DNA from: a virus
Reading direction: 5' to 3' (one strand)
DNA: 53,977 nucleotides
Virus record (IMG/VR): IMGVR_UViG_3300025547_000009
Location: 1 to 53,977 of that record
Below, piece by piece: positions 43 to 45,937 of this stretch. Below the pieces are notes generated by a model. It ran no database searches, was not told the origin of the DNA, and saw nothing but the letters and a program-made list of their open reading frames with translations. The position numbers and the translations under genes are program-made. Position 1 is the first letter of the stretch; each line of letters begins with the position of its first letter.

Positions 43-621
43 TTAAAGGTCTAACCACCTTTTGAGTTCATTGCGATAGTTCTCACCCTTGTTGATGTAG
101 TGGCTAACGATTTCATTAGACATGAACCTCATGTGGCATCCGATTGTCCAACGAAGATCACCCTTTCGATCAATCGAAGCATTTTCAAGTGTCAACATGA
201 AATGGGGATCTTCAGACCCATCAAGAAGTGTTCCTGACTGTAGCACTCGCCGATAATCCCCACCGCTCAGTTTAAATGCCTTTCGTCTAGGGTCAAACTT
301 TACATACTTTGGGAAAGTCTTATCAAAGGATTCTGATACGGTACCATCAGTATCGAGCTTATGTAGTGATGAAAGAATCTTCATAATATCTACAACTTCG
401 TCATACAACTCGATATACAACTCTTGGGTAGGGGTGGTTTCTTCTTCTTGTCCAAAGTAATCATCTTTAAAAATCTTTGAGTCATCTTCATAGTATGATC
501 TCTCTGCGTCATACATATTAGAGTCAAAATAACCTTGTGGGTATCCTGCTGTCCTTTGGTTTTCAAGACGAGCGATTCTTGACTCAAGGTTTCTGATTAC
601 TTCTGATGCTGATCTTCTCAT
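43..621 (-). CDS. Tagged hypothetical protein (class 1 N-terminal tag)
   Basis: 192 residues starting with the recurring class 1 tag: MRRSASE, then a helix ending in RIARLE at about residues 1-20. The tag is basic and amphipathic, with hydrophobic residues spaced 3-4 apart, and RIARLE fits the R-h-x-x-h-E pattern of short trimeric coiled coils. Residues 35-65 are very acidic and Tyr-rich. The remainder looks like a small alpha/beta domain containing KGDLRW, a pattern with loose counterparts in other tagged proteins. The start is supported by an AAAGGAAC Shine-Dalgarno sequence. It is divergent from the MazG-like gene and lacks the usual TTAACCTTAA leader of tagged genes. Function is unknown; a virion-associated role is inferred only from the tag family and promoter type. 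Confidence 0.8.
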   Translation of the reverse strand: MRRSASEVIRNLESRIARLENQRTAGYPQGYFDSNMYDAERSYYEDDSKIFKDDYFGQEEETTPTQELYIELYDEVVDIMKILSSLHKLDTDGTVSESFDKTFPKYVKFDPRRKAFKLSGGDYRRVLQSGTLLDGSEDPHFMLTLENASIDRKGDLRWTIGCHMRFMSNEIVSHYINKGENYRNELKRWLDL

Positions 622-1929: not shown

Positions 1930-1982
1930 CTTGTTTTCAAGTCGTGCTATTCTTGATTCGAGTCTGAAGCTGATCTTTTCAT
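1921..1982 (-). pseudogene. Decayed orphan tag gene (class 1 tag remnant)
   Basis: On the minus strand an ATG at 1982 begins MKRSASD. The sequence then continues in a different frame as LESRIARLENKLF and a stop. Compared with intact tags, 13 bases are missing between the two halves, so the original frame ends at TAG (1947-1949). No cargo domain follows. The upstream region is fully conserved with other tagged genes: a class L promoter-like motif, the TTAACCTTAA leader and an ATGGAGAA ribosome-binding site. This is best read as the stub of a lost tagged gene or a failed cassette copy. Confidence 0.75.
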
Positions 1983-2030
1983 AATGGTTTCTCCATTTGG
2001 TTAAGGTTAAAGAGATCACTTAAGATCAAG

Positions 2031-2049: not shown

Positions 2050-3060
2050 CTAGTATGGCTCTCTGAAATCTAGGTTTTCTCCCTCAAGGAGATGAGCAAT
2101 AAAATTAAGCTCCTTCTTACTTAGACCTCTAAAAGTAAGAGTTGTTTCTAGGTGTCCAGACTCATTTAAGACAGCTTCTGTGAAATGATCCTCTACACCC
2201 CAAGCATATCCAGCATAAACGGAAGAACTATCTTGCTCAAGTACTATTGAAGAGGGTTTGACCTCGACAGACATTAAACCCTCTATTTCACCAAACTCAC
2301 TCTTAACTGCTTCCTCAATGTCTTCCCCCCTCAACTGACCCTTATCTTCCCAAGTAGCGATTATATCCCTATCATCCATAAGTTTGTGGGTGAGTGTGTA
2401 GGTAGTATTTATTCGAGCTGTCTTGTTTTCAAGTCGAGCGACTCTTGATTCAAGACTGTTAATTATTTCACTAGCTGATCTTCTCATCCCTGCGATCTCC
2501 ATATCTTTGAGTATTCTATTTAGAACTTTCTTGACTCTACGATCTCTAGTCAAAGAGAGGGCTTTTTCAAAGTCTCCGCTCCATAGTGCGTCATATTTTT
2601 CAGACATTTCATCTCTAAACTCTGGGTCATAGATATAAAGCATTGGTTCATGCTTTTCGATAGCCTCGATTAAGAGATGTTTTACGGACGAGTGTCTTTT
2701 CATGATGTATTCACTTTGTTTGCTTGTGGATGGAAAAGGGGTTGGGTTATATTTAGCCGCCATATCAACCATCTCACGATCTTCATGTGTGAGTCTTTGT
2801 CGATACCAGTCAGAACCCATAGTGATAAGTGCATAATTAGTACGGTCTAAAGATCTCTCCATTTTAGAGAGGTGCTTAGGGATGGCTTCAAAGTTATCCC
2901 CACAACGCTTGTATACTTCTTCTGCGAGTTGCGGGTGTTCTTTGATAGCTTCTACCATCTGGTTGACATGACTACGAACAATGTGAGCTTCTACACGAGA
3001 GGCTGAGACACCTTCAGATAAAATAGACCAAGATGCTTGGCTTGAAGATTTCTTTTTCAT
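2050..3060 (-). CDS. Hypothetical protein with an internal class 1 tag (possible in-frame fusion)
   Basis: 336 residues from the ATG at 3060, chosen because a GGGGG Shine-Dalgarno precedes it; an earlier in-frame codon at 3093 lacks one. The N-terminal ~190 residues are helical and charged, with ASRVEAHIVRSHV near residue 20 resembling the class 2 tag. At codon 2487 a complete class 1 tag begins internally (MRRSASE to RVARLE), followed by a ~120-residue acidic alpha/beta domain. The DNA just before the internal ATG (ATATGGAGATC) resembles the ribosome-binding region of free-standing tagged genes. The gene may therefore be a fusion of two genes, or may also produce a short 145-residue protein from the internal start. 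Last gene of a minus-strand run. Confidence 0.75.
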   Translation of the reverse strand: MKKKSSSQASWSILSEGVSASRVEAHIVRSHVNQMVEAIKEHPQLAEEVYKRCGDNFEAIPKHLSKMERSLDRTNYALITMGSDWYRQRLTHEDREMVDMAAKYNPTPFPSTSKQSEYIMKRHSSVKHLLIEAIEKHEPMLYIYDPEFRDEMSEKYDALWSGDFEKALSLTRDRRVKKVLNRILKDMEIAGMRRSASEIINSLESRVARLENKTARINTTYTLTHKLMDDRDIIATWEDKGQLRGEDIEEAVKSEFGEIEGLMSVEVKPSSIVLEQDSSSVYAGYAWGVEDHFTEAVLNESGHLETTLTFRGLSKKELNFIAHLLEGENLDFREPY

Positions 3061-3107
3061 TATTATCCCCCTTGTCTTTTGTTCTAACGACAATAATAGA
3101 AGAACTA

Positions 3108-3574: not shown

Positions 3575-5404
3575 TTACTGCCCTTTGATTTTAAACTTAG
3601 TTTTCCAGTTAGGTGAGTAAGTGTCCAAGACACTTCTGTTCACCCTAGAGACTAAGTTAGGTTCAAGCACATTAGCGATCAAAGCATTGGTTTTAGGTGT
3701 TCGAGAGCTTTTGGGCATATAGATGTTTCCGTTAGTCTTATCTATAAATGCCACAGCGTGTTTAGACCCTAACTCCAAGTTATCGTAGACTAGTTTAATC
3801 ATAGAATTGCCTACTCTAGCTTCTAAGTCTAAAGCATTCGCTATTCCCCTACTCGCTTCTGTGATCGCATCTAAATTACTTTCTGGAGTAGTTGGTCTTG
3901 TCGGTTCGGGTGTTTGATCCACGATTTCTGTTGGAGGAGGTGTTGTATTCCCCTCCGTTATCATGTTCATTGTTCTCCAACGAGGCTTTAAGCTACTCAT
4001 TCTCTCATGTCCTACACAAACATCTAAGTTATTGTCTGTAATGTTTGCGAGGTTGACATTTAGGTTTGGTTTAGACTTATTCTTAGGTGCAAACAAGTTA
4101 CCTGTCGCATAGTCAATGAACATATATGCGTGTGTAGATCCAATAGCTTGATTGGTGTAGATAAAGAGTCCATACTTACGCCCCTTCTTAAAGAACAGTC
4201 CAAGACGACTCGCCAAGGACTCAGAGGTCTGTATCATTTGTTGTTTACTTGGGAGTGTTTCTTCAACCTGCGTTGTGGGAACATTCTCTTCTGGTGTAAA
4301 TTCTTCCGTAAAGTCAGTCATGTTTGGAGTGTACTCTTGACCGTCTATTACAATGCTATTAAACGCATCTAAAGACTTCGGATGTAGCTTCCCTACTGCT
4401 TTGTAAGCTAAGGCTTCGCAGAAATGCTCTTCTACATCAGAGGTAGCATAATTAGTAGGGAACAGACCAGACCGAGACTTGAGGTGGTCTTTAATGTACT
4501 TTGCTTTGTACGCACCGACTTCGCTTCCATCTGGCAATACAAGGTAAACACCACCTCTTGGGTGAGTCCGAGAAAGCGTAGTTGGAACACCATGACTCGG
4601 ATTTGAACTTATAGTTGTCTTAGTACGATTCTTTTTGGCATATAAACCGATGTCTTTACCCACAAAGTCATTGAGATTTACTCTGTGTCCCATATGACAT
4701 CGGGAGTCATATCTTCTCCATAAACTCTTTTTCTCCCTAGATAGATTCTTCCTGTAATATCTATGTCCAATTTCATGGATGAATGTCTTCATGAACTCTT
4801 CTTGATCTCGACCCATGTGCTTTAGGGTGACTTCATCTTTAGCAGAGTTGTACCACGCATACCAACTAGCCCTACCTAGCTTTTCGACTAACACCACATC
4901 ACCATAAAGTGCTTGAGTAAAGTTGGGTGCAAGCGAGTTTGTGCAGTAAGTAAGTGCTTTAGTACAAGCCTCTACCATCTCTTCAACTTTATCGCCACTG
5001 AGGTTGATTGGGTTCTGCAAAGTAAAAGGACCAACATCAACTGTGTTTTCACCTTCTTCTCTTAATGGATGTTTCAGAAGATCAAAGATATCCTTAATAT
5101 GTGATCTTCTATCAGAAAACCATTTAGCTGGACTGAATCTTGATCTAGGCATCTTAACCTTGTTTTTTATGGCTCGGACTCTCCTAGATTTATCTTCGGG
5201 AAACTTGATCTTATGGAACAAGAAATCGGCTAGATGCACTGTGTGTACTACTGCCGTAGTATCTAAACTCTGAAGATGCAGATGATCTTCAATGTAGTCG
5301 AGAGCATCGGTTACTTTTATATTGAACTGACTACCTCTTACGAGTCCTTGCCAGTCGCCTAGTTTACATCTACTTAAATGATTATAACTAGCGTACTTTT
5401 TCAT
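3575..5404 (-). CDS. Putative zincin metalloprotease (HEIGH) with duplicated C-terminal module
   Basis: 609 residues from the ATG at 5404 (AGGTGG five bases upstream). H210-E-I-G-H214 is the HExxH zinc motif of zincin proteases. A later EEHFCEALAY near residue 325 could supply the third zinc ligand. The C-terminus carries two copies of a ~85-residue module, about residues 400-485 and 525-609. Each contains GS-x-HA, then FID, a TGN/NGN turn and a P-K segment, separated by a Pro/Thr-rich linker. It sits in a minus-strand run with probable virion genes and may act in virion maturation or be injected; neither is shown. The overall family is not recognised. Confidence 0.75.
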   Translation of the reverse strand: MKKYASYNHLSRCKLGDWQGLVRGSQFNIKVTDALDYIEDHLHLQSLDTTAVVHTVHLADFLFHKIKFPEDKSRRVRAIKNKVKMPRSRFSPAKWFSDRRSHIKDIFDLLKHPLREEGENTVDVGPFTLQNPINLSGDKVEEMVEACTKALTYCTNSLAPNFTQALYGDVVLVEKLGRASWYAWYNSAKDEVTLKHMGRDQEEFMKTFIHEIGHRYYRKNLSREKKSLWRRYDSRCHMGHRVNLNDFVGKDIGLYAKKNRTKTTISSNPSHGVPTTLSRTHPRGGVYLVLPDGSEVGAYKAKYIKDHLKSRSGLFPTNYATSDVEEHFCEALAYKAVGKLHPKSLDAFNSIVIDGQEYTPNMTDFTEEFTPEENVPTTQVEETLPSKQQMIQTSESLASRLGLFFKKGRKYGLFIYTNQAIGSTHAYMFIDYATGNLFAPKNKSKPNLNVNLANITDNNLDVCVGHERMSSLKPRWRTMNMITEGNTTPPPTEIVDQTPEPTRPTTPESNLDAITEASRGIANALDLEARVGNSMIKLVYDNLELGSKHAVAFIDKTNGNIYMPKSSRTPKTNALIANVLEPNLVSRVNRSVLDTYSPNWKTKFKIKGQ

Positions 5405-5406
5405 TT

Positions 5407-6138
5407 TTACCACCTGATCTTGAACTTGACTTTAAGTTGTAAATCTTCGTTAATGACTTCTTCTGGAGGTCTTGTGTCATAAGAATAGTTAAACTCATTA
5501 ATGATAGAGAAGAACTTATCTACCTTGAACTCTAATGAACCTGTCCCCAGAATACGATAATCAGAAGGAGTCATAAAGAGAGGCTGATAATAGGCTATTA
5601 TTTTCCCCTCTACTGTGTCCTTCCACTTTTTACCTAGTCTGATATAGGAAGTACCTCTAGCGTCTAACCTACCCTCTTTTAAGCCTTCAATTTGTTCATA
5701 GTCTGACATACCCCCTAGACCTATGGCTAGATGGTCTTCAAAAGCAGTAAATCTAATTCCAAATCCAGTTAGTTGTCTGAGTTGAAGAAGTCTGAACTCA
5801 TCTTTTTGGTTTTGGGTGAACATTTCTGTTCCTATGTGGTTCAACCACATAGCTGTCCACCTTAAATGAGAATACGCAGTGTTGTTAAAAGACTCTCCGT
5901 CTTCTTCTCCGTAGGAAACAGATCCTATAAGTAAGTTATGGTGTACGCCACTAATGTGATCTAACCTCAAACCTGCTTGGTATTGGAATACTTCCACATT
6001 TCCTCTTTGAAGAGAAACTCCTACTTCGGTAGAACCATGTAATCCTTGCTTATTTCCACTTCGGTCAGACTCGATGTTTACAACCTGTCCCCATGCCATA
6101 AGAGGGGGCATCAACAGAAAGATAAGCAAGGCTCTCAT
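5407..6138 (-). CDS. DUF481-like outer-membrane beta-barrel protein
   Basis: 243 residues. The ATG at 6138 (TAATG overlap with the upstream gene) begins a classic signal peptide: MRALLIFLLMPPLMAWG, probably cleaved after AWG or nearby. The mature part is built of alternating beta strands rich in aromatic residues and Gly. It ends in a terminal Trp preceded by alternating hydrophobics (KVKFKIRW), like the C-terminal beta-signal read by the BAM machinery. The pattern matches the DUF481/YdiY family of salt-induced outer-membrane proteins. It is unusual in a phage. Possible roles are changing the host surface (superinfection exclusion) or a captured host gene, both inferred. Confidence 0.72.
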   Translation of the reverse strand: MRALLIFLLMPPLMAWGQVVNIESDRSGNKQGLHGSTEVGVSLQRGNVEVFQYQAGLRLDHISGVHHNLLIGSVSYGEEDGESFNNTAYSHLRWTAMWLNHIGTEMFTQNQKDEFRLLQLRQLTGFGIRFTAFEDHLAIGLGGMSDYEQIEGLKEGRLDARGTSYIRLGKKWKDTVEGKIIAYYQPLFMTPSDYRILGTGSLEFKVDKFFSIINEFNYSYDTRPPEEVINEDLQLKVKFKIRW

Positions 6139-7547
6139 TACAGAATCTCTACAGGGTAGTTCTCCAATAGGAGTTTTGTAAGAGGACATCGCTTTTTCTT
6201 AGCGTGTGTTTGTAGGTACGGGATATGATCACTACTCTTATTGTGGAGAGTGTGAGCAATAGTTCCTGTATAAAGAATGAGATCAGAGATCGCCTTATGT
6301 GCAGACTTTGCACAAGAGGGTTTAAATCCTAAAGGGCCTGATAACACACGCTTTGGTTTCTGATTGAGCAAGCAAGCACCACTAAGAGCTTTACTAGCAT
6401 GACAGTTTGATCCTTGGCATCGAGTGCTGAAATAAGTACCCGCTTCTGGGTGTTTTGTTTCAACAAACCGAGCGAGGGTATTTACCTTTTTCTCCAGTTT
6501 ACGCAGAGCAACCTCTACATCACTCTGGACTCGCTTGGTGAAGCCATAGTTCCCACTAGCCGCAGTCTTGGTTGCCATTCGACTCATGCCTCGGTAGATT
6601 TCCATAGCCATCGCATTGTTGGTGGCCGCATACTCAAAAAGCCTTTCAGCATCTTGATCTACCAACTCTTCTTCGATCTCACGAACGGAAACCCCATAGT
6701 GATCTGCGATATGCTTCAGGATCTGAGCCTTCTTTGCAGGGGGGATGCTGTTCAGATACTTTGCGTTCTCAGCACCCGAACCAGCGATCTTGTTCATATA
6801 TTGAGAAGCCACTCTACTAGACTGTACTGAGTTAGCAATCAAGTCAGCTATTTGCTGACCTAATTGTTTCGCAGATGACCCATTAAGGTTCTTGATCAAA
6901 TCCCTACCTACCCAAAGAGAAGTCGCAATCTCATTTGATTTTCCAGATCCCTCAGTTGAGTTTTGAAAAAAGATAGTAGTATTTAAAGAAGATATCTCCA
7001 TTTTGACTGAATAAAAAGGTTTACCTCTTAACCTTGCATGGGTACTGACCTTAATCTCAGTGATCTTAATGTCTCCTTTAATATTCTGGGCATCAAGCCA
7101 AGTTTCAAGTTTCATTACAAAAGCATAGAGTTTGCTTCGGACATCTTCTTCATCAATGAGTTTAGCGACCTCAGTCAAAGACTTTCCAGTATTTGAATTA
7201 AACAACTCTTTTGGTGAGTACATTGCTTGACGCAAAGTAGACCTAGACTTAGTAATCAAGTCATCAACTTCTTTTTTGAGTCGTTTGATGTTCTTGTCGG
7301 CTTTTTCCATAGCTCTGTTATAGTGTTCAAAGCTAGGTGTATAAGCATCACGACCATGTGTATTTACTAGATCTTGTTCATTTTGTTCAGCTCTCTCCCA
7401 GTTCTGATAGATCCTACGATCAATCATACCTAGATCAAGAAGCCCTTTGATGTCCATGCTATCAATACACTTTTCAGCTTGGTCAATTTTCTCTTGAAAG
7501 AGCAAAGATTTTTCAATCAGATTTTCGGATATTTCATGCCTACTCAT
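6138..7547 (-). CDS. Coiled-coil hypothetical protein with internal class 2 tag
   Basis: 469 residues from the ATG at 7547 (GGAG upstream, four bases after the previous stop). Residues 15-110 are charged and helical, probably coiled coil. SSRVASQYMNKIAGS near residue 245 matches the class 2 tag, and a second Arg/Lys-Ala segment (RMATKTAASGNYGFTKRV) lies near residue 325. The C-terminal ~90 residues hold several Cys and His, suggesting a metal or disulfide site. No enzyme family recognised. Its position between acidic-repeat and membrane proteins, under a class L promoter-like element, suggests a virion-associated role by inference. Confidence 0.72.
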   Translation of the reverse strand: MSRHEISENLIEKSLLFQEKIDQAEKCIDSMDIKGLLDLGMIDRRIYQNWERAEQNEQDLVNTHGRDAYTPSFEHYNRAMEKADKNIKRLKKEVDDLITKSRSTLRQAMYSPKELFNSNTGKSLTEVAKLIDEEDVRSKLYAFVMKLETWLDAQNIKGDIKITEIKVSTHARLRGKPFYSVKMEISSLNTTIFFQNSTEGSGKSNEIATSLWVGRDLIKNLNGSSAKQLGQQIADLIANSVQSSRVASQYMNKIAGSGAENAKYLNSIPPAKKAQILKHIADHYGVSVREIEEELVDQDAERLFEYAATNNAMAMEIYRGMSRMATKTAASGNYGFTKRVQSDVEVALRKLEKKVNTLARFVETKHPEAGTYFSTRCQGSNCHASKALSGACLLNQKPKRVLSGPLGFKPSCAKSAHKAISDLILYTGTIAHTLHNKSSDHIPYLQTHAKKKRCPLTKLLLENYPVEIL

Positions 7548-7548
7548 A

Positions 7549-8727
7549 TCACCACTCCAAGTCGTCAATGATGTCATAGTATCGAGCTTTTTTACCCATT
7601 TCATCTCTGTTTTTTTCAACAAGACTAGGGTCTGGAGCTTGCCCTGGAGAAGTTACTGATCCTTCATACTCTAAAAAATCTTCTGGTACATCTCCATCTC
7701 TTCTAGCATTTGCGTACTCCTCTTGACCTTTTTCTCCCTTAGAATATTTTGATTCTTTATCGAAATCAGCCATGAACCCCATATCATCAATAATGTCCTC
7801 TGAACCTTGTTGGTCATCATCTCTATATCCACGATAACGAGCAACATCATTCATAGCAGAGTAAGACTGAGAAATCTTGTCCTCGACCCAATCATCAAGA
7901 TCTTCCAGACCAATGTCATCAACGATGAAATCAGCCATGTCGCTCATCTCTCGTAGATTCTGTCGGCTCATGTATGAACCAGAGTCTTCGTGGTCTTTAG
8001 CAGTTCGACCAAGACCAATGTCATCAATAATCTCATCGTCTGAAGCGAACATAGGTCTGTGTGTTACTTGAGAGCCACCTTTTTCAGCAAGCATTACCGT
8101 AACATCATATCCCTTTATTCTTTTACGAGTGCCTTTTTGGAAATGTGCCTGTGCCATCTCCTGTGCTTCAAACTTCGAGTCCGCGTAGACTTCAACTTTT
8201 TCACGATTCCACATGGCGATATACCCATTAGAACCAGATCCGATTTGTTGACCCCCAGCCATGCGACCAAGACCCATGTCATCAATAATCTCATCGTCTG
8301 CTGACTTCATCTTTTCATTCATCTCTTCCTCAGAGTGAACTACTTCATCTTCAAACTTTTCAGCAACTTCAGGGTTGTCTTTTTTCCATTGTGCGACCGC
8401 TGTATCAACAACTTTATCTGAGTTATGCTTACGACTAGGTAAACGAGACTCTTTCCAAAAGTCGGACATACGACCAAGACCAATGTCATCGACAATCTCG
8501 AATCCTTCAAGTTCATCAGCCTCAAAGTCATCAGCGACAACATCATCTATATAGTTGCCTGGTCCACTTTTAAGGTCGCCATATCCCGTGTTGAGTTGTA
8601 CCGTCTTTTCCCCCAAGAAATCGGCGGCATTTCTTTCACCATAGTCGGGCTGTAGGCGAAGGGGTTGTTGTGGTTGGCGAAGCTCCATGTGCTTCTGAGC
8701 GATTTTCTTTGCGAGTCTTTTAAACAT
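7549..8727 (-). CDS. Acidic protein with six IIDD-type repeats
   Basis: 392 residues, strongly acidic. It opens with MFKRLAKKIAQKHM, a class 2-like basic helix. The motif (E/D)-I-(I/V)-D-D-(I/M)-G-(L/F) recurs near residues 77, 146, 232, 267, 311 and 385; three copies read IGLGR or MGLGR. Residues 168-225 look like a small alpha/beta domain (WNREKVEVYADSKFEAQEMA, then VTVMLAEKGGSQVTH) of a type I recall from other phage proteins. The repeated acidic peptides look like docking or processing sites rather than a fold. First gene of a minus-strand run under a class L element; AAGGAGAAC precedes the start. Confidence 0.8.
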   Translation of the reverse strand: MFKRLAKKIAQKHMELRQPQQPLRLQPDYGERNAADFLGEKTVQLNTGYGDLKSGPGNYIDDVVADDFEADELEGFEIVDDIGLGRMSDFWKESRLPSRKHNSDKVVDTAVAQWKKDNPEVAEKFEDEVVHSEEEMNEKMKSADDEIIDDMGLGRMAGGQQIGSGSNGYIAMWNREKVEVYADSKFEAQEMAQAHFQKGTRKRIKGYDVTVMLAEKGGSQVTHRPMFASDDEIIDDIGLGRTAKDHEDSGSYMSRQNLREMSDMADFIVDDIGLEDLDDWVEDKISQSYSAMNDVARYRGYRDDDQQGSEDIIDDMGFMADFDKESKYSKGEKGQEEYANARRDGDVPEDFLEYEGSVTSPGQAPDPSLVEKNRDEMGKKARYYDIIDDLEW

Positions 8728-8764: not shown

Positions 8765-8783
8765 TAATAGATAAACTATTAAA
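8765..8783 (-). promoter_or_regulatory. Late-type (class L) promoter-like motif
   Basis: Minus-strand TATTTAATAGTTTATCTATT, about 38 bases before the start at 8727. It overlaps the 3' end of the upstream metalloprotease gene and probably drives the 8727-to-2050 run. Confidence 0.5.
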
Positions 8784-10665
8784 TAGAGGGTAGTCCTACG
8801 AGGTACTTAACAACATCACCCTTACCCTCTAGGTTTCGGGTGTAGCATTTTCTATCATCATCCCACTCAAGAGGTTTATTGATGATTGTCCTTACTTGAT
8901 CTTCATCTTGAACATGGTTGACACCGAGTCTCTTCTTTAAGAGTCGGGCGAACCTTGCGTCAACCTCTGCGTACCAACCTCTCTTTAAGAGAAGTTCAGC
9001 ACCTTTCATCAACATAGCGTTCCTACCTTCACTTGTTCCGTCAGATCCGATGAGTCCAATCTTCTTTCCGAAAGGAGTAGATGAGTAGCTGACGAAAGCG
9101 TCTATCTCATCATCACCTTCTACATCTACAACCCAGAAGGTGTCGTAGTTGCTCATAAGATCCGACTTGGAGCTTATGTGTTTCCCTACTTTGGAGTATG
9201 ACAGATCATAAATAGTCCAAAGTTGTTCTTGTTGATCTTGATCAAACTGTCGAGGGGGTGCTTCAACCCACTTTTTACGCTCAAGATGAACACGAGCGAT
9301 ACGACTAGCCATTCTTTGATGGGTGTTAAAGATCATCTTATATGCTTCGCCCACAGCTTTCTTATATTTGCCTTTGGCGTATCTTTTAAGAGTGTGAAAA
9401 AAGCTATTTGGGCTTGTGGATCTCGTCCATTTAGATTTTGACCCGACACCAGTTAAAGCTTTGAATACCTCTAATTTATCTTTTTCTGTGAAAGTCTCAT
9501 ATTCAGAAAATCGCTTTAGATCAGACATTATTGTTCTAATGTTATCTCTAAGATCAGTATAAAACTCACCATCGTCAAGATAGTGGAGTTCCTTTTTATC
9601 TCTTACGCTTAGACTTTTGGGGTCTCCATGTTGGTTATATTCAGGGGTTTGGATTTTCTTTGAGGGCATACCAGCTTCATTCTTATACGCCCTAAAATTG
9701 TCTGTTATTTTCTTACCCACGAAAGTTAATATAGATTGACCAACATGAGTCATTTCATGGATTACAGAAGTATGCACTGCTCTTATTACATTACGCACAG
9801 TAGGATGGTAATCAAAAGACTGAAGAATCTTTTTCCCATAGTCAGGGATAGCGATTGTGACTTCTTTTTTAGTAAAAGACCAACTACTGTTTGTTGCATC
9901 TACCTCGATCTTTACTTTGATCTTGTCAAAATACTCCCAAGTACGGCTCATGTCTGACATACTTTTTTTTAAGGACTCAACCATCATTTCATAGTTTTCA
10001 ATGAGGTCCTCGAACTCAGGGTTGTTTTTCTTTTTCGCCTTCTCAATTATTTGAGAATACTCCACGATTTGACCCTTGGCTTTTTCCCGCATCATTTCTT
10101 GATGTTCTTCTAATGAGTTTTGGTCGAGATACCAGTCACCAAAATAAATAGGGAACTCTTTAATAATCACCTGCCCCATTTTCATGGGTTTTAATTTTAC
10201 TCGGATGACTTTCTTAAATTCTTTTATCTCCCCTTTAAGTTTCTTTGTCTCTCTTTCGCCCCAAGATAAGTAACTCTCCAATTCGATCTCGGTTTTCGCT
10301 ATGCTTTCTTCAACGACTACTCTTATCTGTTCTCTTTTGGCGGGGTCTTTTACTCCAGAGAAGTATCTCTGTTTTAAATGCATAGATGCATAACCATATC
10401 CAAAGTACCCTGTGGACAATGAAGAAAAATCTTTATAACTATTGAAAAGACCACGAGTCCCATCCTTCCTTAACGATTCTCTAAGGGAGACAATGGAGTC
10501 TGAGAGGGCGGATAGACGGGTTTCTTGCTCTCCTCGGTAGTTTTTATAACTTTTAATCTTCTCTTGTAGGGCTTTGACGATATTAGTAGCTACTTGAGAG
10601 AGTGCAAAACCATAAACATCTTGAGTCATCATTTCTGGTGGCTTCATTAGTCCTGCGTATTTCAT
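8779..10665 (-). CDS. Putative zincin metalloprotease (HEMTH) fused to a GNAT-like domain via a class 2 tag
   Basis: 628 residues. H303-E-M-T-H307, within VIHEMTHVGQS, is a zincin zinc-binding motif. The N-terminal 290 residues are charged and helical. A class 2 tag (RMASRIARVHLERK) occurs at about 452-465. After it comes a ~160-residue alpha/beta region with DAFVSYSS, then LIGSDGTSEGRNAMLMKGAELLLKRG, which looks like a GNAT-type acetyltransferase fold, though I cannot align the acetyl-CoA motif firmly. The tag thus sits at the border between two domains. A GGGGGT ribosome-binding site precedes the ATG. It is co-oriented with the C39-like protease gene two bases upstream. Confidence 0.72.
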   Translation of the reverse strand: MKYAGLMKPPEMMTQDVYGFALSQVATNIVKALQEKIKSYKNYRGEQETRLSALSDSIVSLRESLRKDGTRGLFNSYKDFSSLSTGYFGYGYASMHLKQRYFSGVKDPAKREQIRVVVEESIAKTEIELESYLSWGERETKKLKGEIKEFKKVIRVKLKPMKMGQVIIKEFPIYFGDWYLDQNSLEEHQEMMREKAKGQIVEYSQIIEKAKKKNNPEFEDLIENYEMMVESLKKSMSDMSRTWEYFDKIKVKIEVDATNSSWSFTKKEVTIAIPDYGKKILQSFDYHPTVRNVIRAVHTSVIHEMTHVGQSILTFVGKKITDNFRAYKNEAGMPSKKIQTPEYNQHGDPKSLSVRDKKELHYLDDGEFYTDLRDNIRTIMSDLKRFSEYETFTEKDKLEVFKALTGVGSKSKWTRSTSPNSFFHTLKRYAKGKYKKAVGEAYKMIFNTHQRMASRIARVHLERKKWVEAPPRQFDQDQQEQLWTIYDLSYSKVGKHISSKSDLMSNYDTFWVVDVEGDDEIDAFVSYSSTPFGKKIGLIGSDGTSEGRNAMLMKGAELLLKRGWYAEVDARFARLLKKRLGVNHVQDEDQVRTIINKPLEWDDDRKCYTRNLEGKGDVVKYLVGLPSI

Positions 10666-10667
10666 TT

Positions 10668-11714
10668 TTACCCCCTGTTTAGATATGAAGAAGCAACACG
10701 ACTAGCCCTGCGTTTATTGATGTCTCTTAATACGAGATCGACCACGCTTAGTTGAGCCGATGGTTTGACATTGGGCAACAGACCTGCAATCTCAATCGCT
10801 AACTCTTTTCTCGACAACCCGCTTTGAGCGAGGTTTAAGATTTGAGATACCTGTTCATCTGAAACATCTGTCTCTGACTGCAAGCAAGGCAGTAAGGAAG
10901 CCATTTTAGAGGTTGTTGAGGGTAAGTGTCTGATGATCTCTGGGAATGTGGAGATACCTTTACAAGTACGGATTAAGTCAGCCCCCTCAAACAAGAACGC
11001 AGTACATTCTCCTTGAGCGTTCTTTTCAAAATCAAGGGAATACTGTCCAACACCTGGAACTGAGACTTTGTAAACAAGATATATCCCGTCCACATCTGCT
11101 TTACATGACCACTTATCAAGCATGGTCATGTAGCCTAAGTGCTTCACACTTGATACGATCTCTTTTACAGAGCTTACAAAGTCATCTCTAGTAGCCATGA
11201 TTTGTCTCCCATCTTCTGTTATTTCACGCTCAATCATAAGAGCAGGTCTGCGAACTAAGTAGTTAGGCCACTTCTCGTACCACTTAGCATAGAAGTCATC
11301 TTCGGAGACTTCACGAGTGGTCTTGTCGGGGTTGGGTAGATTCGGGTCAGCCACATGAACTACATAGCTTCCTTTTTCACCTGTAACATCAAAGATCAAA
11401 CTAGCATGACTCCAATCCCTACCTTCGGGATTCCATGCAATAAGTACAGGCTTACCCTCATCTGTCCACGCTTTTACTTGGGTCAAAGTAGCTGGTGTAG
11501 TGAGGGTAGCTCGACACCCAAAATACTGAGCACAAGCTAAGACTTCTTCCCACCTAGCCCCTTGCATAGGTTTTGCACCAATCACTTGATTGACTTGATC
11601 CTCGTTGCACTTAACGCCAACAGCATTTAGAGCCATACAGGTGGAGGTCGCCACACAACTAAACTGTGAACGCTGTCGTATTGGGCTCACATCTGCTTTT
11701 GCTGATCTTCTCAT
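10668..11714 (-). CDS. C39-like papain-fold cysteine protease with tag sequences at both ends
   Basis: 348 residues. The N-terminal domain has the order of a C39/papain-like peptidase: Q14-x5-C20 (QRSQFSC), H103 (WSHASLIF) and D123 (VADPN). The core matches bacteriocin-processing-type C39-like domains. The first five residues, MRRSA, repeat the start of the class 1 tag. The last thirteen, around RRASRVASSYLNRG, are a textbook class 2 tag. The protein could process phage proteins or be packaged and injected; no experimental basis is visible. A GAAAGGGAT Shine-Dalgarno and a class L-like element lie upstream. Confidence 0.75.
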   Translation of the reverse strand: MRRSAKADVSPIRQRSQFSCVATSTCMALNAVGVKCNEDQVNQVIGAKPMQGARWEEVLACAQYFGCRATLTTPATLTQVKAWTDEGKPVLIAWNPEGRDWSHASLIFDVTGEKGSYVVHVADPNLPNPDKTTREVSEDDFYAKWYEKWPNYLVRRPALMIEREITEDGRQIMATRDDFVSSVKEIVSSVKHLGYMTMLDKWSCKADVDGIYLVYKVSVPGVGQYSLDFEKNAQGECTAFLFEGADLIRTCKGISTFPEIIRHLPSTTSKMASLLPCLQSETDVSDEQVSQILNLAQSGLSRKELAIEIAGLLPNVKPSAQLSVVDLVLRDINKRRASRVASSYLNRG

Positions 11715-11777: not shown

Positions 11778-12539
11778 TTATCTTCTCTTAAACTTCGCTT
11801 TATTGAGGTGAATCTGAATGTGTCCTTTTTCTCCTATACCAATATCATAGTCCTTATCGTAGCCCGATTTGAGCTTTTGAAATATGGGGTACTTTCTTGT
11901 TAGGAGTTTATTAAGATCATTGGTTAGAGGTCCAGCCCACTCATCCCACCAACCTTCTTCATCCCAACCTTCTGGATCACAGTCATCATCCCAATCCTCA
12001 TCACAGTCATAATTCTCTCCAACATAATGGTCGAGTCTATGTCTATTCATAGGTTCTATCCATAGGAACCAGGTATCTCCATCGTCACTTAGATCCATAC
12101 CACTCATACGACTGCCATTCGGGGTCCTTGATCTAATCAAGAAATCGTATACCTCTTGAGCTGTCGGTAGTTGTTCTTCAACTGTAGGTCGAGATCGAGG
12201 TGTTGATCTAGTAGGTGTTGGTTGTCGAACAGCTCTTGCACTTGGAACAGAGGGTTGTCTACCTGTTGGGTTGGATCTAAATGAGTCAGCCAAGTCAGAT
12301 GCGTTGTTTCTGTGCATCATCTTTCTGATGTTTTTTAGATCACGATCACTAAGATCTCCACCGTCTTTGAGGATCTGAAGGTATCCTCCAAGTTCAATGA
12401 CCATTCTCGTGTCAGTTCGGTTTTGAGCTATGAAACCCCTAAGAACTTCATAAGCCTCTGTCTTAGTAGTCGCTTGTTTTTCAAGCCTTGCAATCCTCAT
12501 CTCAAGACTTCTGATTATTTCTGAGGCTGATCTTCTCAT
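11778..12539 (-). CDS. Tagged hypothetical protein (class 1)
   Basis: 253 residues opening with the class 1 tag (MRRSASE to RIARLE, then KQA). Residues 25-85 are helical. Residues 88-125 are a low-complexity Pro/Thr/Arg linker (RQPTPTRSTPRSRP). Residues 185-205 are extraordinarily acidic (DCDEDWDDDCDPEGWDEE). The C-terminal 50 residues look like a small basic alpha/beta tail. The family is not recognised. An ATGGAGAAC ribosome-binding region and a class L-like element precede it, the standard tag cassette. Confidence 0.78.
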   Translation of the reverse strand: MRRSASEIIRSLEMRIARLEKQATTKTEAYEVLRGFIAQNRTDTRMVIELGGYLQILKDGGDLSDRDLKNIRKMMHRNNASDLADSFRSNPTGRQPSVPSARAVRQPTPTRSTPRSRPTVEEQLPTAQEVYDFLIRSRTPNGSRMSGMDLSDDGDTWFLWIEPMNRHRLDHYVGENYDCDEDWDDDCDPEGWDEEGWWDEWAGPLTNDLNKLLTRKYPIFQKLKSGYDKDYDIGIGEKGHIQIHLNKAKFKRR

Positions 12540-22038: not shown

Positions 22039-22699
22039 TTGGATAAGGCAAGGATTAATAGGGACACACCCTATACACCTACCTTATCTAGTATCAAGAG
22101 GGGTGAATGAAAGTTGTCTAGTAGATTTCTACTCATGGCAACCCCACACCAATGTTCAATGTCCAAAGTTTAAAGCTAACTTTGGACATTCAGGTGAGCG
22201 TATTAAAGACTCACTCATAATCCCTATTACTTCCCCACGAGGGGAGATCTTAGGGATGGAAACACGCAGGATCAACGAGGACGGGTCTAAAAGAGTACAT
22301 CAGTACCGAACCCTCAATGCTCAATGGAATCCTTATGCTTTAGGTGCAGAGGAAGGTTTTAAGGCATTGTGGGAACTAGGAGATTTATGGGTTGTTGAGG
22401 GGATCTTTGATAAGATCTCTCTCGATAAGGTCATACCTAGTTGTGATGCCTGTATCTCAACCTTGAGGGCTGGTATGGATGCTATCACAATGGACATGAT
22501 AGAGCGTTTCTACACACCTGCCTCAACCATATACATCTGTTATGATAATGATGAGACAGGTCAGAAGAAATCATATTGGCTTCAGCGTGAGATGAAGAAG
22601 CGAGGTATGAGGGCTGTTATCTGGAAGTATCGAGGGAAAGACCCTAACGATGTGTGGACACAAGGAGGAGATCAAGCTCTAAGGAGAATGTTCCTGTAA
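22028..22699 (+). CDS. TOPRIM-domain primase-like protein
   Basis: 223 residues starting at GTG (GAGGGA seven bases upstream). LIIPITSPRGEILGMETRRI resembles the RNA-polymerase-basic part of DnaG. WVVEGIFDKIS (121-131), ICYDNDETG (170-178) and GKDPNDVW (203-210) are the TOPRIM metal-binding motifs. The zinc-binding domain and helicase-binding domain of full primases are absent, so it would need a partner or be a stand-alone RNA primer synthase. It overlaps the lysozyme-like gene by 11 bases, and its end overlaps the tagged gene on the other strand by 28 bases. Confidence 0.82.
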   Translation: MRDDWIRQGLIGTHPIHLPYLVSRGVNESCLVDFYSWQPHTNVQCPKFKANFGHSGERIKDSLIIPITSPRGEILGMETRRINEDGSKRVHQYRTLNAQWNPYALGAEEGFKALWELGDLWVVEGIFDKISLDKVIPSCDACISTLRAGMDAITMDMIERFYTPASTIYICYDNDETGQKKSYWLQREMKKRGMRAVIWKYRGKDPNDVWTQGGDQALRRMFL

Positions 22700-23973
22700 T
22701 CTTCTTCAATATCTCTTACTTCTAAATCCATGATTGCGTAAGAAAGCCCATCAACACCTCTCTTACTTTCATTTAGATTTATAGTAAAGTGTTTAGTTCC
22801 TGTTGTGATGTCCTCATCTTCTTCATTCTCAAAATATTCAATAACACATTGAATGTCCAAACGAAAATCTTCTTCATCGAAGAAAATCTTATCCCTTTCG
22901 AGATAATAATCGGAAAGCTCATATACCTCTCTACCTAGTTCAGTGCTTATCCACCTATCCACAACCTTAATCAAATGTTTTAATGCTTTCCCACTTCTAT
23001 CTATTAAGTTAAGATTAATCGCCTTACGAGCGTTACCGTAGGATTGTTTTTCGAGTCTTGCGATCCTCATCTCAAGAGGATTAATGATTTCTGATGCTGA
23101 TCTTCGGTTAGAGGTACTTTTCAGATGTTTTACCACTTCTTTACGATCATGCTTTCCATCTACACTCCCTACTTCAACCCCGACAGGTTTTGCATCGGGA
23201 GAGCTAAAGTAAATGTAAGCCAAAAAGTGTTCATCAACCATACCCTTCTCTTCACAAAAGTCATCATAGCATATTTCTTTCTTTTGACCCTTATCAATCA
23301 AAAGCTCATAAAGACCCTGCTCGGATTTGATTTGCACAGCTTTGAGAATCTTTGGTCTGCTTTTGAAACCTTTGATAAATTTGGCTCTTTCAGCGGCTTT
23401 AATGACTTCTGTCTCCGTTAAACCAAAAGAGTCTTTTACCCATCTTTGAGAGAAGAAGTCTTTAACATCTTTAAAGTTAAATGCTTGTTTTTCAAGTCTA
23501 GCGATACGACCCTGTTTACGAAGCCTATCTCGCTCTTGGTTGACCATTTTTTGATGCTCCTCTACTTCTTTACGAGCACTCTCTTGACCTACACGATAAA
23601 TAACTTGATCAACGACTCGTTTAATGAAGTTTCTTTCGCTCATCTTTGAGTCATTTGCACCACTCAGTTCAAAGTCTACTTGTCTAAAGTCTCTGTTTCC
23701 ACCTGTGATCTTGTACTCAGCAGTATCTTTCCCTTCTCTTTTTAGAGAGACTTGGTACACCTCACCTTCAAATTTGAACTTCCCTGATAACCGATTGTCC
23801 TTATCCATTTTCACATCAGAATTGACTGCTCTGTTGTCTTTTAGTCCTTTTAAAAACCACCCATGTACCGTATCTAGGGGGTTTTTTTCAAAAAGTCCAA
23901 AGATTGCTTGTTTTTCAAGACGAGCAATCCTCATCTGAAGGTTATTAATAATTTCACTGGCAGATCTTCTCAT
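22672..23973 (-). CDS. Triple-tag protein: three class 1 tags in one chain
   Basis: 433 residues from the ATG at 23973; an in-frame GTG at 24009 only reads through the leader. Tag 1 is at 1-23 (full). Tag 2 is at 155-165, only the second half (GRIARLEKQAF). Tag 3 is at 289-311 (RRSASEIINPLEMRIARLE) without a Met. Each is followed by a ~120-residue charged alpha/beta segment, so the chain reads as three tagged proteins joined in frame. No linker repeat or stop remnants remain. The standard leader and a strong class L element precede it. It may be a polyprotein if the tag is cut, or a multimer built by fusion. Confidence 0.8.
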   Translation of the reverse strand: MRRSASEIINNLQMRIARLEKQAIFGLFEKNPLDTVHGWFLKGLKDNRAVNSDVKMDKDNRLSGKFKFEGEVYQVSLKREGKDTAEYKITGGNRDFRQVDFELSGANDSKMSERNFIKRVVDQVIYRVGQESARKEVEEHQKMVNQERDRLRKQGRIARLEKQAFNFKDVKDFFSQRWVKDSFGLTETEVIKAAERAKFIKGFKSRPKILKAVQIKSEQGLYELLIDKGQKKEICYDDFCEEKGMVDEHFLAYIYFSSPDAKPVGVEVGSVDGKHDRKEVVKHLKSTSNRRSASEIINPLEMRIARLEKQSYGNARKAINLNLIDRSGKALKHLIKVVDRWISTELGREVYELSDYYLERDKIFFDEEDFRLDIQCVIEYFENEEDEDITTGTKHFTINLNESKRGVDGLSYAIMDLEVRDIEEDYRNILLRA

Positions 23974-24018
23974 AATGGTTCTCCATTTGATTAAGGTTAG
24001 ACTGATCACTTATGAGAA

Positions 24019-24039
24019 CCTATAAATAAACTATTAAAG
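24019..24039 (-). promoter_or_regulatory. Late-type (class L) promoter-like motif, consensus copy
   Basis: Minus-strand TTTAATAGTTTATTTATAGG, 46 bases before the triple-tag gene. It is followed by TTCTCATAAGTGATC, TAACCTTAATC and ATGGAGAACC. Confidence 0.6.
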
Positions 24040-28020: not shown

Positions 28021-28476
28021 TTAGTATTCCTTACCTTTGGGTTCTTTTGTGATGTCTCTACGCCTATCTTTTAAACCCGCTTCACTAGCTTGAAGAACTA
28101 AGAATTTTTGAATGTCTCTCTTAGGGATATTTTTGTCTACACCAGTAGCTGTGACAACCGCAAACAGATCTGCCATCGAATTTTTATGCTCTCCTTGCTG
28201 ATACAAATTCATTGCCACTGATACTTTAATTTTATCACCATTATGTTCAATAATGGCTGTGTTCTTTGAACCCATGCCTAGCCTTTTTTGTATTTCTGCG
28301 TACCCTATCCCATACATAGGGTTACCATGAAACCAAAGTGATGCGGTATCAAACTTGGGCCTCTTTTTTTGTTCTCTTTCAGGTTCTTTAAATAAGTCCA
28401 AGATAGCACCTAAAAAACCTTCTTTTTGCATATATCTGTACGCAACTCTACTAGCCATCTTATTACGAGTTCTCAT
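28021..28476 (-). CDS. Class 2-tagged hypothetical protein
   Basis: 151 residues opening MRTRNKMASRVAYRYMQKEG, the clearest N-terminal class 2 tag in the window. A hydrophobic helix (FLGAILDLF) and a basic linker follow. A ~100-residue alpha/beta domain then contains DKIKVSVAMNL and DLFAVVTATG. No known family. A class L element precedes it, as for class 1-tagged genes, so both tag types share the same promoter class. GGAAATAAACC precedes the start. Confidence 0.75.
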   Translation of the reverse strand: MRTRNKMASRVAYRYMQKEGFLGAILDLFKEPEREQKKRPKFDTASLWFHGNPMYGIGYAEIQKRLGMGSKNTAIIEHNGDKIKVSVAMNLYQQGEHKNSMADLFAVVTATGVDKNIPKRDIQKFLVLQASEAGLKDRRRDITKEPKGKEY

Positions 28477-28513
28477 GGTTTATTTCCTTTGTCTGAGAGT
28501 CTCTATATGACTG

Positions 28514-40615: not shown

Positions 40616-41111
40616 TGGAAACATATCAGGCACTACACCATTACCTGAACACTGTCACTTTGTTGGCAGTGATAAGATAATCTGCTCGGACAACGATGGC
40701 GTTGATCGAGAATGTGAATTTTTCGAGGGTGAATTAGGATGCAAGGTGACAGCACAACTTGTGGATGTAAACCCAACAGGTGCGGAGATGAAAGATGTCT
40801 TTATAGGTCATGCTTATCTTGTAGTGGTTGTCGCTATTTTGAGTTTAGCCTTAACTCAAATCATTAAACCTTTCATTTGGAAAACCTGCACCGAAAAGTC
40901 GGATGCTGTGATTAGACTATTTGCGATACTCACGGGTGCGGGTATTGCCTACCATTTATCAAACCCACTTAAGATGATTGATGTCTATATGGGAGCAAGT
41001 GCGGGAGCTATCAATGCTTTCGTGATAAAAATGTTTAAAGCTAAAGTCAAGAAATCACTAGGTGTTGAATCAACACCAGACCCACAAGATAAGGAAAAAG
41101 AAGATGAATAA
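40608..41111 (+). CDS. Holin-like membrane protein, copy 1
   Basis: 167 residues. The N-terminal 60 residues are acidic and Cys-containing. Membrane segments at about 67-90 (HAYLVVVVAILSLALTQII), about 98-118 and about 123-142. The charged C-terminus (KEKEDE) and size fit a phage holin, which permeabilises the inner membrane at lysis. Its central 100 residues are clearly paralogous to 41488-41871. The next gene starts inside its end. Strong AGGGG upstream. Confidence 0.65.
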   Translation: MSDGNISGTTPLPEHCHFVGSDKIICSDNDGVDRECEFFEGELGCKVTAQLVDVNPTGAEMKDVFIGHAYLVVVVAILSLALTQIIKPFIWKTCTEKSDAVIRLFAILTGAGIAYHLSNPLKMIDVYMGASAGAINAFVIKMFKAKVKKSLGVESTPDPQDKEKEDE

Positions 41112-41460
41112 ATCAGTACAACGAGTTGCTTCAAAATATATGGAAGCAAGATTATTTGGAATACTTAGTACTCCTGTTAGCAATCAGGAAATAAGAAGAG
41201 CAGTTAAAAGATTACAATGGGCTTTCCCAAAAGGTGAATACAAAGTCATGTCCATTATGGGGCAAGACAGGAAGAAAGTGATTAGGACTACTACACCAGA
41301 TGGTTTCTTGTCTGAGATTACTGGTCTTGAAATGGACAAAAAAGGGAATCTATCTTATCGGGTCTTAACTGTGTCTAACCCTCATGGCAGAGACATTAAA
41401 GTTGATAGTTTAGACGAAGCGACAGATACTGTATATAGATTATTAAAGAATCACTTGTAA
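41104..41460 (+). CDS. Class 2-tagged small protein between two holin-like copies
   Basis: 118 residues from the ATG at 41104. N-terminal tag MNKSVQRVASKYMEARL, then an alpha/beta domain (RRAVKRLQWAFPKGEYKVMSIM, then KKGNLSYRVLTVSN). The domain loosely recalls the post-tag domains of class 1 proteins (KGDLRW, TGALRW). It sits between two paralogous holin-like genes, overlapping the first. Function unknown. Confidence 0.7.
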   Translation: MNKSVQRVASKYMEARLFGILSTPVSNQEIRRAVKRLQWAFPKGEYKVMSIMGQDRKKVIRTTTPDGFLSEITGLEMDKKGNLSYRVLTVSNPHGRDIKVDSLDEATDTVYRLLKNHL

Positions 41461-45001: not shown

Positions 45002-45937
45002 TCAATGACCAAAGTCTGCTTGGTTCTCGATAAATACTTCTCTAATTTGAGTGATTTGAGAGGTCAAGACTTTGTAAGACACCGAACGAGCCGAAGCCCA
45101 CTTCTTCTTACTCTCATACTCTGCATATCTAAGCTCAAGCCAAAGCGAGTAGTACATATCTACCTTCGCTTCACCGAAACGATCAAGTAAAAGAGATCTC
45201 ATGTACGCATTAGTGGACTTTTCTTCAAGAGAATGATTTTCGTCCTCATGCACAAAGTAGTCTGGCTCTCCGACTGACACACCAGTATCTGCGTCAGTCT
45301 TGGAAACCACTTGAGCGATCTGCCAACCTTGCGACTCAAGATTCTGTATATGATGGACAGGAACATAATCTGTGTTCGACTCTTTAGAAGCGTATGCTTT
45401 GACTTTCGTAACCTCTGATTGAGTCCTCGCACCACGACTCCGTTGTAGAGCATCTGCACCCTCTTTGTACTTTTCACGCACTACATACTGCAAGAACCAC
45501 TCATAGACCACAGAGGGCTTGATTCTCTTGCCTTTATCAATCTCAGTTTTGAGCTGATTTTTCTTGATAAAGTGTTCAGATAGGAAGCTATGGAAGTAGC
45601 TTACGATCTGATCTTCGGGTAGAGTGAAACGCTTGTTGTAAGGGGTTCTTCTCTGAACCATCCCCAACACTCGTTCGTAGTTCTCACACTTAGCATTATA
45701 AAGCCAATTTTCAGTCTCATTTCGCACCCTAACAGGTTTTTTTGGCTGTGAGTCTGATAAGATCATGTCAAAGTGATCATCTGCTGAAGTGTCGTAGATC
45801 ATATCGAAGTGATCATCTGCTGATGTATCGTAGATCATATCGAAGTGATCATCTGCTGATGTATCGTAGATCATATCGAAGTGGGCATCTGCACCACTCC
45901 TTATAGGGTAAGCTAAACCCTTAGTTATTCTATTCAT
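45002..45937 (-). CDS. Protein with four 12-residue acidic repeats; C-terminal part perhaps sigma-like
   Basis: 311 residues. Residues 16-63 are four units of a 12-residue repeat, A-D-D-H-F-D-M-I-Y-D-T-S in the best copies. A basic/alpha region follows. Residues 110-165 and 275-311 have helical content and a C-terminal VSYKVLTSQITQIREVF that could be a helix-turn-helix, so a sigma-like or DNA-binding role is conceivable, weakly supported. GGAGACAC precedes the ATG. The flanking gaps (44919-45001 and 45938-46115) hold only a weak GTTTATATATGG motif near 46066. Confidence 0.6.
   Translation of the reverse strand: MNRITKGLAYPIRSGADAHFDMIYDTSADDHFDMIYDTSADDHFDMIYDTSADDHFDMILSDSQPKKPVRVRNETENWLYNAKCENYERVLGMVQRRTPYNKRFTLPEDQIVSYFHSFLSEHFIKKNQLKTEIDKGKRIKPSVVYEWFLQYVVREKYKEGADALQRSRGARTQSEVTKVKAYASKESNTDYVPVHHIQNLESQGWQIAQVVSKTDADTGVSVGEPDYFVHEDENHSLEEKSTNAYMRSLLLDRFGEAKVDMYYSLWLELRYAEYESKKKWASARSVSYKVLTSQITQIREVFIENQADFGH
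45749..45892 (-). repeat. Four 36-bp in-frame tandem repeats
   Basis: Four adjacent 36-base units within the gene at 45002-45937, each coding the 12-residue acidic unit. The central two are nearly identical at DNA level and the outer ones diverge, consistent with recent slippage or recombination expansion. No spacers, so not a CRISPR. Confidence 0.8.

Follow-up and report, generated by a model that had tools for sequence, protein, structure and literature searches.

The closest described parallel to the genes analyzed here is the capsid targeting sequence (CTS) of phage T4, which is carried by IPI-IPIII and Alt and is removed by gp21 (PMC9026906, PMC3012670). Like the T4 CTS, the 23-residue tag that we describe is a short N-terminal sequence common to otherwise unrelated small proteins, and its cargo is diverse and differs among relatives. 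The T4 CTS is removed by the prohead protease, whereas removal of the tag is a prediction. The T4 sequence has ~10 residues and the tag 23, with a coiled-coil pattern; the tag occurs on an unusual scale (up to ~30 proteins per genome), its predicted cleavage site is [KR]-x-A, and its cargo can be fused in chains. We propose that the tag works like a T4 CTS and do not claim membership in that family, because a T4 gp21-type protease (Peptidase_S77/PF03420) was not found and because both the head location and the cutting are predictions from sequence.

Other phages offer partial parallels. Head proteins of SPN3US and phiKZ have propeptides, with A-x-E and S-x-E motifs (PMC5694885, PMC10052503). 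The present case would share with them large phages, many ejected head proteins, and several cuts within propeptides, but the motif differs from [KR]-x-A, and here one tag is common to dozens of proteins. DarB of P1 has an N-terminal capsid targeting sequence of between 9 and 30 residues (PMC9024508) that sends cargo to the capsid, the role proposed here for the tag; unlike tagged proteins, the P1 Dar proteins have no common consensus and no fusion chain. As for the coiled coil, RhxxhE is a trimeric coiled-coil motif (Kammerer 2005, as cited in PMC5940361). In the form given by that citing paper, the tag contains it (R15-I16-x-x-L19-E20, with R, L, and E invariant), spans only about two heptads, and has a trimer state that is predicted by the motif only.

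We analyzed a 53,977-nt stretch of viral DNA from IMG/VR (the window), and all the comparison data are uncultured contigs. An earlier note on this DNA had proposed that one 433-aa protein carries three tags, each followed by a different segment of ~120 residues, by in-frame fusion of three tagged genes. The gene is laid out as follows.

24021..24033, minus strand: promoter-like box TAGTTTATTTATA, ~60 nt 5′ of the ATG
23981..23984, minus strand: ribosome-binding site GGAG (a conserved AAATGGAGA precedes tag ATGs)
22672..23973, minus strand: three-tag fusion gene, 433 aa, ATG at 23973, stop at 22672, no internal stop
23905..23973, minus strand: tag 1, full, residues 1-23, MRRSASEIINNLQMRIARLEKQA, predicted cut between KQA23 and I24
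23509..23904, minus strand: segment 1, residues 24-155, with a charged helix at its end
23482..23508, minus strand: half tag RIARLEKQA, residues 156-164, predicted cut between KQA164 and F165
23110..23481, minus strand: segment 2, residues 165-288, missing in the relative G002
23041..23109, minus strand: tag 3, full, residues 289-311, NRRSASEIINPLEMRIARLEKQS, with AAC replacing ATG
22675..23040, minus strand: segment 3, residues 312-433, whose 26% homologue is the C-terminal part of the G002 allele

The presence of three tags in one ORF is borne out. The full tags score ~74 bits or more with a tag matrix (seeded in part from the tags of this same ORF), versus a best score of 14 in 1.5 Mb of shuffled translations, and R[IV]ARLE[KR] has 0 occurrences in 20 shuffles of 766,076 ORF residues. 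The second tag is real, but it is the second half of a tag only and spans residues 156-164, not the 155-165 first proposed. The segments have 132, 124, and 122 residues, in agreement with the expected ~120. For tag 3, the predicted cuts are between RSA293 and S294, and at KQS311 or RKA318.

The tag belongs to a large family. In IMG/VR large-phage contigs it heads more than 110 unrelated cargo sequences (80 + 32 non-redundant), with 31 matches in contig G005 (375 kb) and 12 in G011 (226 kb). It is thus an N-terminal sequence common to unrelated cargo, which is one property of a CTS-type sequence. Among 87 aligned proteins L12, R15, L19, and E20 are invariant, and A5 is near-invariant at the N-terminus. 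Pfam matches of the cargo are isolated ones only: a WGR domain, a cupin/JmjC-like domain, and KOW motifs. The exact tag pattern has no occurrence in a bacterial and archaeal genome collection, and LR745208, a distant relative of 485 kb among the huge phages, has no tag match. No close homologues were found in annotated phages, in DNA or protein, and a tblastn search with the 23-aa tag, underpowered at such length, gave no matches.

The tag is a module of DNA as well as of protein: a promoter-like box, a ribosome site, an ATG, and 23 codons. Of 45 tags, internal ones included, 35 have the box TAGTTTATTTATA ~60 nt upstream, and in G005 it also stands before head and tail genes. At least 6 further genes in the window open with the same tag, and a second fusion is present.

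43..621, minus strand: N-tagged gene, 192 aa
2050..3093, minus strand: second fusion, an untagged gene joined in frame to a tagged gene
11778..12539, minus strand: N-tagged gene, 253 aa
12590..13504, minus strand: gene with a degenerate N-terminal tag, 304 aa
13537..14652, minus strand: N-tagged gene, 371 aa
29463..29801, minus strand: N-tagged gene, 112 aa
29898..30287, minus strand: N-tagged gene, 129 aa
41919..42368, plus strand: N-tagged gene, 149 aa

A decayed tagged-gene start lies at 1930-1995 (minus strand), where the promoter-like box, ribosome-binding site, and ATG are kept, the tag is out of frame, and the reading ends in a short dead ORF.

Other repeated or clustered features were seen along the way. 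Another short peptide, approximately [AS]xRVAxx[YF][LM] and often with K[TI]A after it, is repeated in the window at 28024-28479 (-), 41062-41457 (+), 6138-7622 (-, residue ~279), and 10668-11714 (-, C-terminus). Several proteins carry it at the N-terminus, one apparent fusion has it internally, and a C39-like peptidase has it at the C-terminus; it is also present in head-module proteins of G005. Three protease-like genes lie near tagged genes, at 3575-5413, 8779-10665, and 10668-11714 (-). Their features are two motifs resembling those of zinc proteases, HEIGH and HEMTH, and a match to Peptidase_C39_2, and their products may serve either as cargo or in processing. Inside a gene of the window, 45760-45892 holds a tandem repeat with a 36-nt period and three or more copies. 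G005 has at least 5 related DNA-methyltransferase-like genes in a row, with a DnaB-like helicase between them (L093:1477-10570, minus strand).

How does the same locus look in relatives? The 107-kb contig G001 has an identical gene, but at 99.993% identity over 53,973 nt it is the same virus as the window and thus gives no independent support for the fusion. Beyond it, the syntenic locus exists in three states: one part plus a separate gene in G005, two parts in G002, and three parts in the window. Homologues as a single three-part chain everywhere, which would have spoken against the idea of fusion, are therefore not what we observe. In G005, a tagged gene with one cargo (245 aa) precedes a second, separate tagged gene (244 aa), and the gene order upstream is common to G005 and the window up to the tag. 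We claim the same locus here and not homology, since the comparison of segment 1 with the single-cargo protein of G005 is not significant (shuffle P 0.48; none by hhalign).

The G002 allele (274 aa) consists of tag 1, segment 1, the half tag, and a different C-terminal part, which is homologous to segment 3 at 26% (shuffle 0/1000). Over codons 1-164 it differs from the window at 4 codons only. The two contigs are 98-99% identical from the tag-1 ATG to about window position 22120 bar one internal replacement, which runs from the half tag through to the last ~10 codons, so the half tag is the breakpoint of the G002 allele. Upstream of the ATG, the two differ in both the preceding gene and the 5′ untranslated region while codons 1-164 are nearly identical, which places one edge of the high-identity island at the tag-1 ATG. 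An exchange of segment 1 only is ruled out because the downstream gene is also 98-99% identical in G002. Separate homologues were sought for each segment, as the earlier note had advised, and the outcome is mixed: the segment 3 homologue is found only behind other internal tags, and no direct stand-alone homologues at a significant level were found for segments 1 and 2. Two weak matches are not claimed, that of segment 2 to a tagged protein of G012 (E 0.09-0.12) and that of segment 3 to G005 L085 (z 5 among ~85 comparisons).

Fusions of other composition occur across the clade. The untagged part of the 2050-3093 fusion stands alone in G002 and G005. A fusion in G021 has an internal tag without ATG before a cargo whose N-tagged stand-alone homologue is in G005 (E 4e-71). 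In G005, an internal tag precedes a 55% homologue of the C-terminal portion of the G002 allele, joined there to a different N-part; that N-part recurs in L139 (L139/L089 54%), with unrelated C-parts, and an N-tagged protein found in G022 also has the L139 cargo (E 3e-78). Similarly, the WGR-type fusion L082 and L165 have N-parts at 55% and unrelated cargo. In the cargo swaps of L165/L082 and L139/L089, the border falls exactly at the internal tag. L166 seems to contain another three-part chain, whose third tag is eroded (KVARFERSA). In a 331-aa ORF of L185 (frame start 4501, minus strand), QRVRLAS is all that separates two cargoes; the second of these occurs by itself, behind a tag of its own, in L013 1288-1899 (plus strand; E 1e-22).

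The tag is thus an exchangeable N-terminal module, and the borders of exchange and of fusion are at tags. The three states of the locus and the other fusions in the clade together give good support to the in-frame fusion of tagged genes, and the evidence is solid that the 433-aa ORF is an in-frame concatenation of three "tag + cargo" modules in a clade of uncultured large phages. The fusion genes encode several proteins in one ORF, which is one of the two features of a viral polyprotein; the other, proteolytic release of the parts, is predicted here.

If such a chain were cut, what would cut it, and where? Tag ends carry [KR]-x-A or [KR]-x-S, with variable spacing. The motif [KR]-x-A occupies positions 21-23 in 36 of 80 non-redundant tags. 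When it is not there, 28 of 44 tags have one within the next 12 residues (3.1 in shuffled sequences), compared to a second copy in 4 of the 36 tags that already have it at 21-23 (3.0 in shuffled sequences); the motif was first spotted in these same data, and the shuffle tests take no account of kinship among sequences. In a second set of 32 new cargoes, the excess repeats (6/18 vs. 1.5, P 0.002), but the contrast between the two tag groups does not (Fisher 0.21, in a small set). The motif is present at 11 of 14 fusion junctions, an indirect sign of release, and absent from 3, and the end of tag 3 in the 433-aa ORF is KQS. The tag itself also contains the motif (RSA, RIA), and there it could be due to the constraints of a coil.

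The head genes have to be read from relatives, as the window contig has no head protease. A head maturation protease (phrog_18299) is found in G005, G011, G014, G017, and G019, which include both of the largest tag-bearing contigs. The G005 head module has this protease. It also encodes two proteins that we name from where their genes lie and from the character of their sequences, not from a family match: one is acidic and scaffold-like, the other MCP-like. Among 373 G005 ORFs ranked by [KR]-x-A excess, the scaffold-like protein is 1st and the protease 4th, and [KR]-x-A is by far the strongest of 180 three-residue patterns in this pair. The LR745208 protease is 44% identical to the G005-type protease, and there both the scaffold-like protein and the protease have a [KR]-x-A excess (21 vs. 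10.5; 12 vs. 5.4). The MCP-like protein has no such excess, and neither the protease nor the scaffold-like protein is enriched in the T4-, phiKZ-, and SPN3US-type motifs (LxE/IxE, SxE, AxE).

These patterns suggest, short of proof, a role for the tag in directing proteins into the nascent virus head, followed by its removal. We consider it somewhat more probable than not that the tags are T4-CTS-like capsid-targeting propeptides, and that modules of tag plus cargo concatenated in frame give a chain that the head protease cuts into three. The tag would form a short coiled coil through which cargo is docked to the prohead scaffold, and as a propeptide it would be removed by the head maturation protease after [KR]-x-A (or -S). 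The chain would be cut near residues 23, 164, and 293-318, and the products would be three internal (ejected) head proteins. A possible link of the tagged genes to the virion comes from the promoter-like box that they have in common with head and tail genes, and from the head protease in tag-bearing contigs. We infer cleavage into three proteins from a statistical agreement: the [KR]-x-A/S at tags and junctions is also the top motif of the protease and the scaffold-like protein.

Alternatively, the tag may be a short trimerizing coiled coil that is never cut, in a stable multi-domain chain whose coils gather copies or partners. The invariant residues fit RhxxhE as that motif is cited in PMC5940361, a charged helix closes segment 1, and a low-confidence AlphaFold model of the 433-aa protein (pLDDT 39, no confident fold) has the half tag within one long helix, 113-181. 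We find this unlikely, because an uncut coil leaves unexplained why [KR]-x-A follows the helix at varying distances, why it matches the motif of the protease and scaffold-like protein, and why A5 is near-invariant. One could also see the tag region as mainly a recombination anchor in the DNA, made of promoter, ribosome site, and first codons, with internal tags being functionless scars left by unequal exchange. Long-alignment homology does end at tag 3′ ends above chance in several genome pairs, with nothing for G005/G019 and G019/G020 (the test takes long alignments only; a version without that restriction was inflated by paralogous tags). The decayed start at 1930-1995 fits as well, as do some fusions in which the reading frame runs across an intact ribosome site and ATG. 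But L12, R15, L19, and E20 are kept at the protein level in 95 of 95 tags despite varied codons, and internal tags that have no ATG keep their protein sequence (in G021, L139, and L089), which makes functionless scars improbable.

Fusions that keep an ATG and a sequence like a ribosome-binding site (359 aa in G005, and 2050-3093 in the window) would also be expected if internal tags were alternative translation starts giving nested proteins. At tags 2 and 3 of the 433-aa ORF, the start codon, the GGAG, and the promoter-like box of real tagged starts are all absent; these tags are therefore internal to one chain and not hidden starts, and the reading is very improbable. As for the fusion being an artefact of assembly, the identity of the window and G001 as one virus leaves room for it, and G002, a different virus, has this half tag too, in a gene of two parts, while other contigs carry other fusions, so we give it hardly any credence.

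Returning to capsid-targeting propeptides, the 433-aa gene is best read as a concatenated and probably polyprotein-like cargo gene, for which we infer head targeting, tag removal, and release of three proteins. The fuller proposal is a tentative one, although quite possible: a phage polyprotein of tag-concatenated cargo, released in the prohead by a head protease that recognizes [KR]-x-A, with the tag DNA acting as an adaptor for shuffling. In the literature searched, we found no description of a head protease with [KR]-x-A specificity. If true, the tags would provide a sequence-based readout of many head-packaged (ejected) proteins in this clade of large phages, together with a testable protease specificity. 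The 433-aa gene would be a rare case in which one chain yields several virion proteins of a phage, and the tags would explain the shuffling of early-acting proteins between phage genomes.
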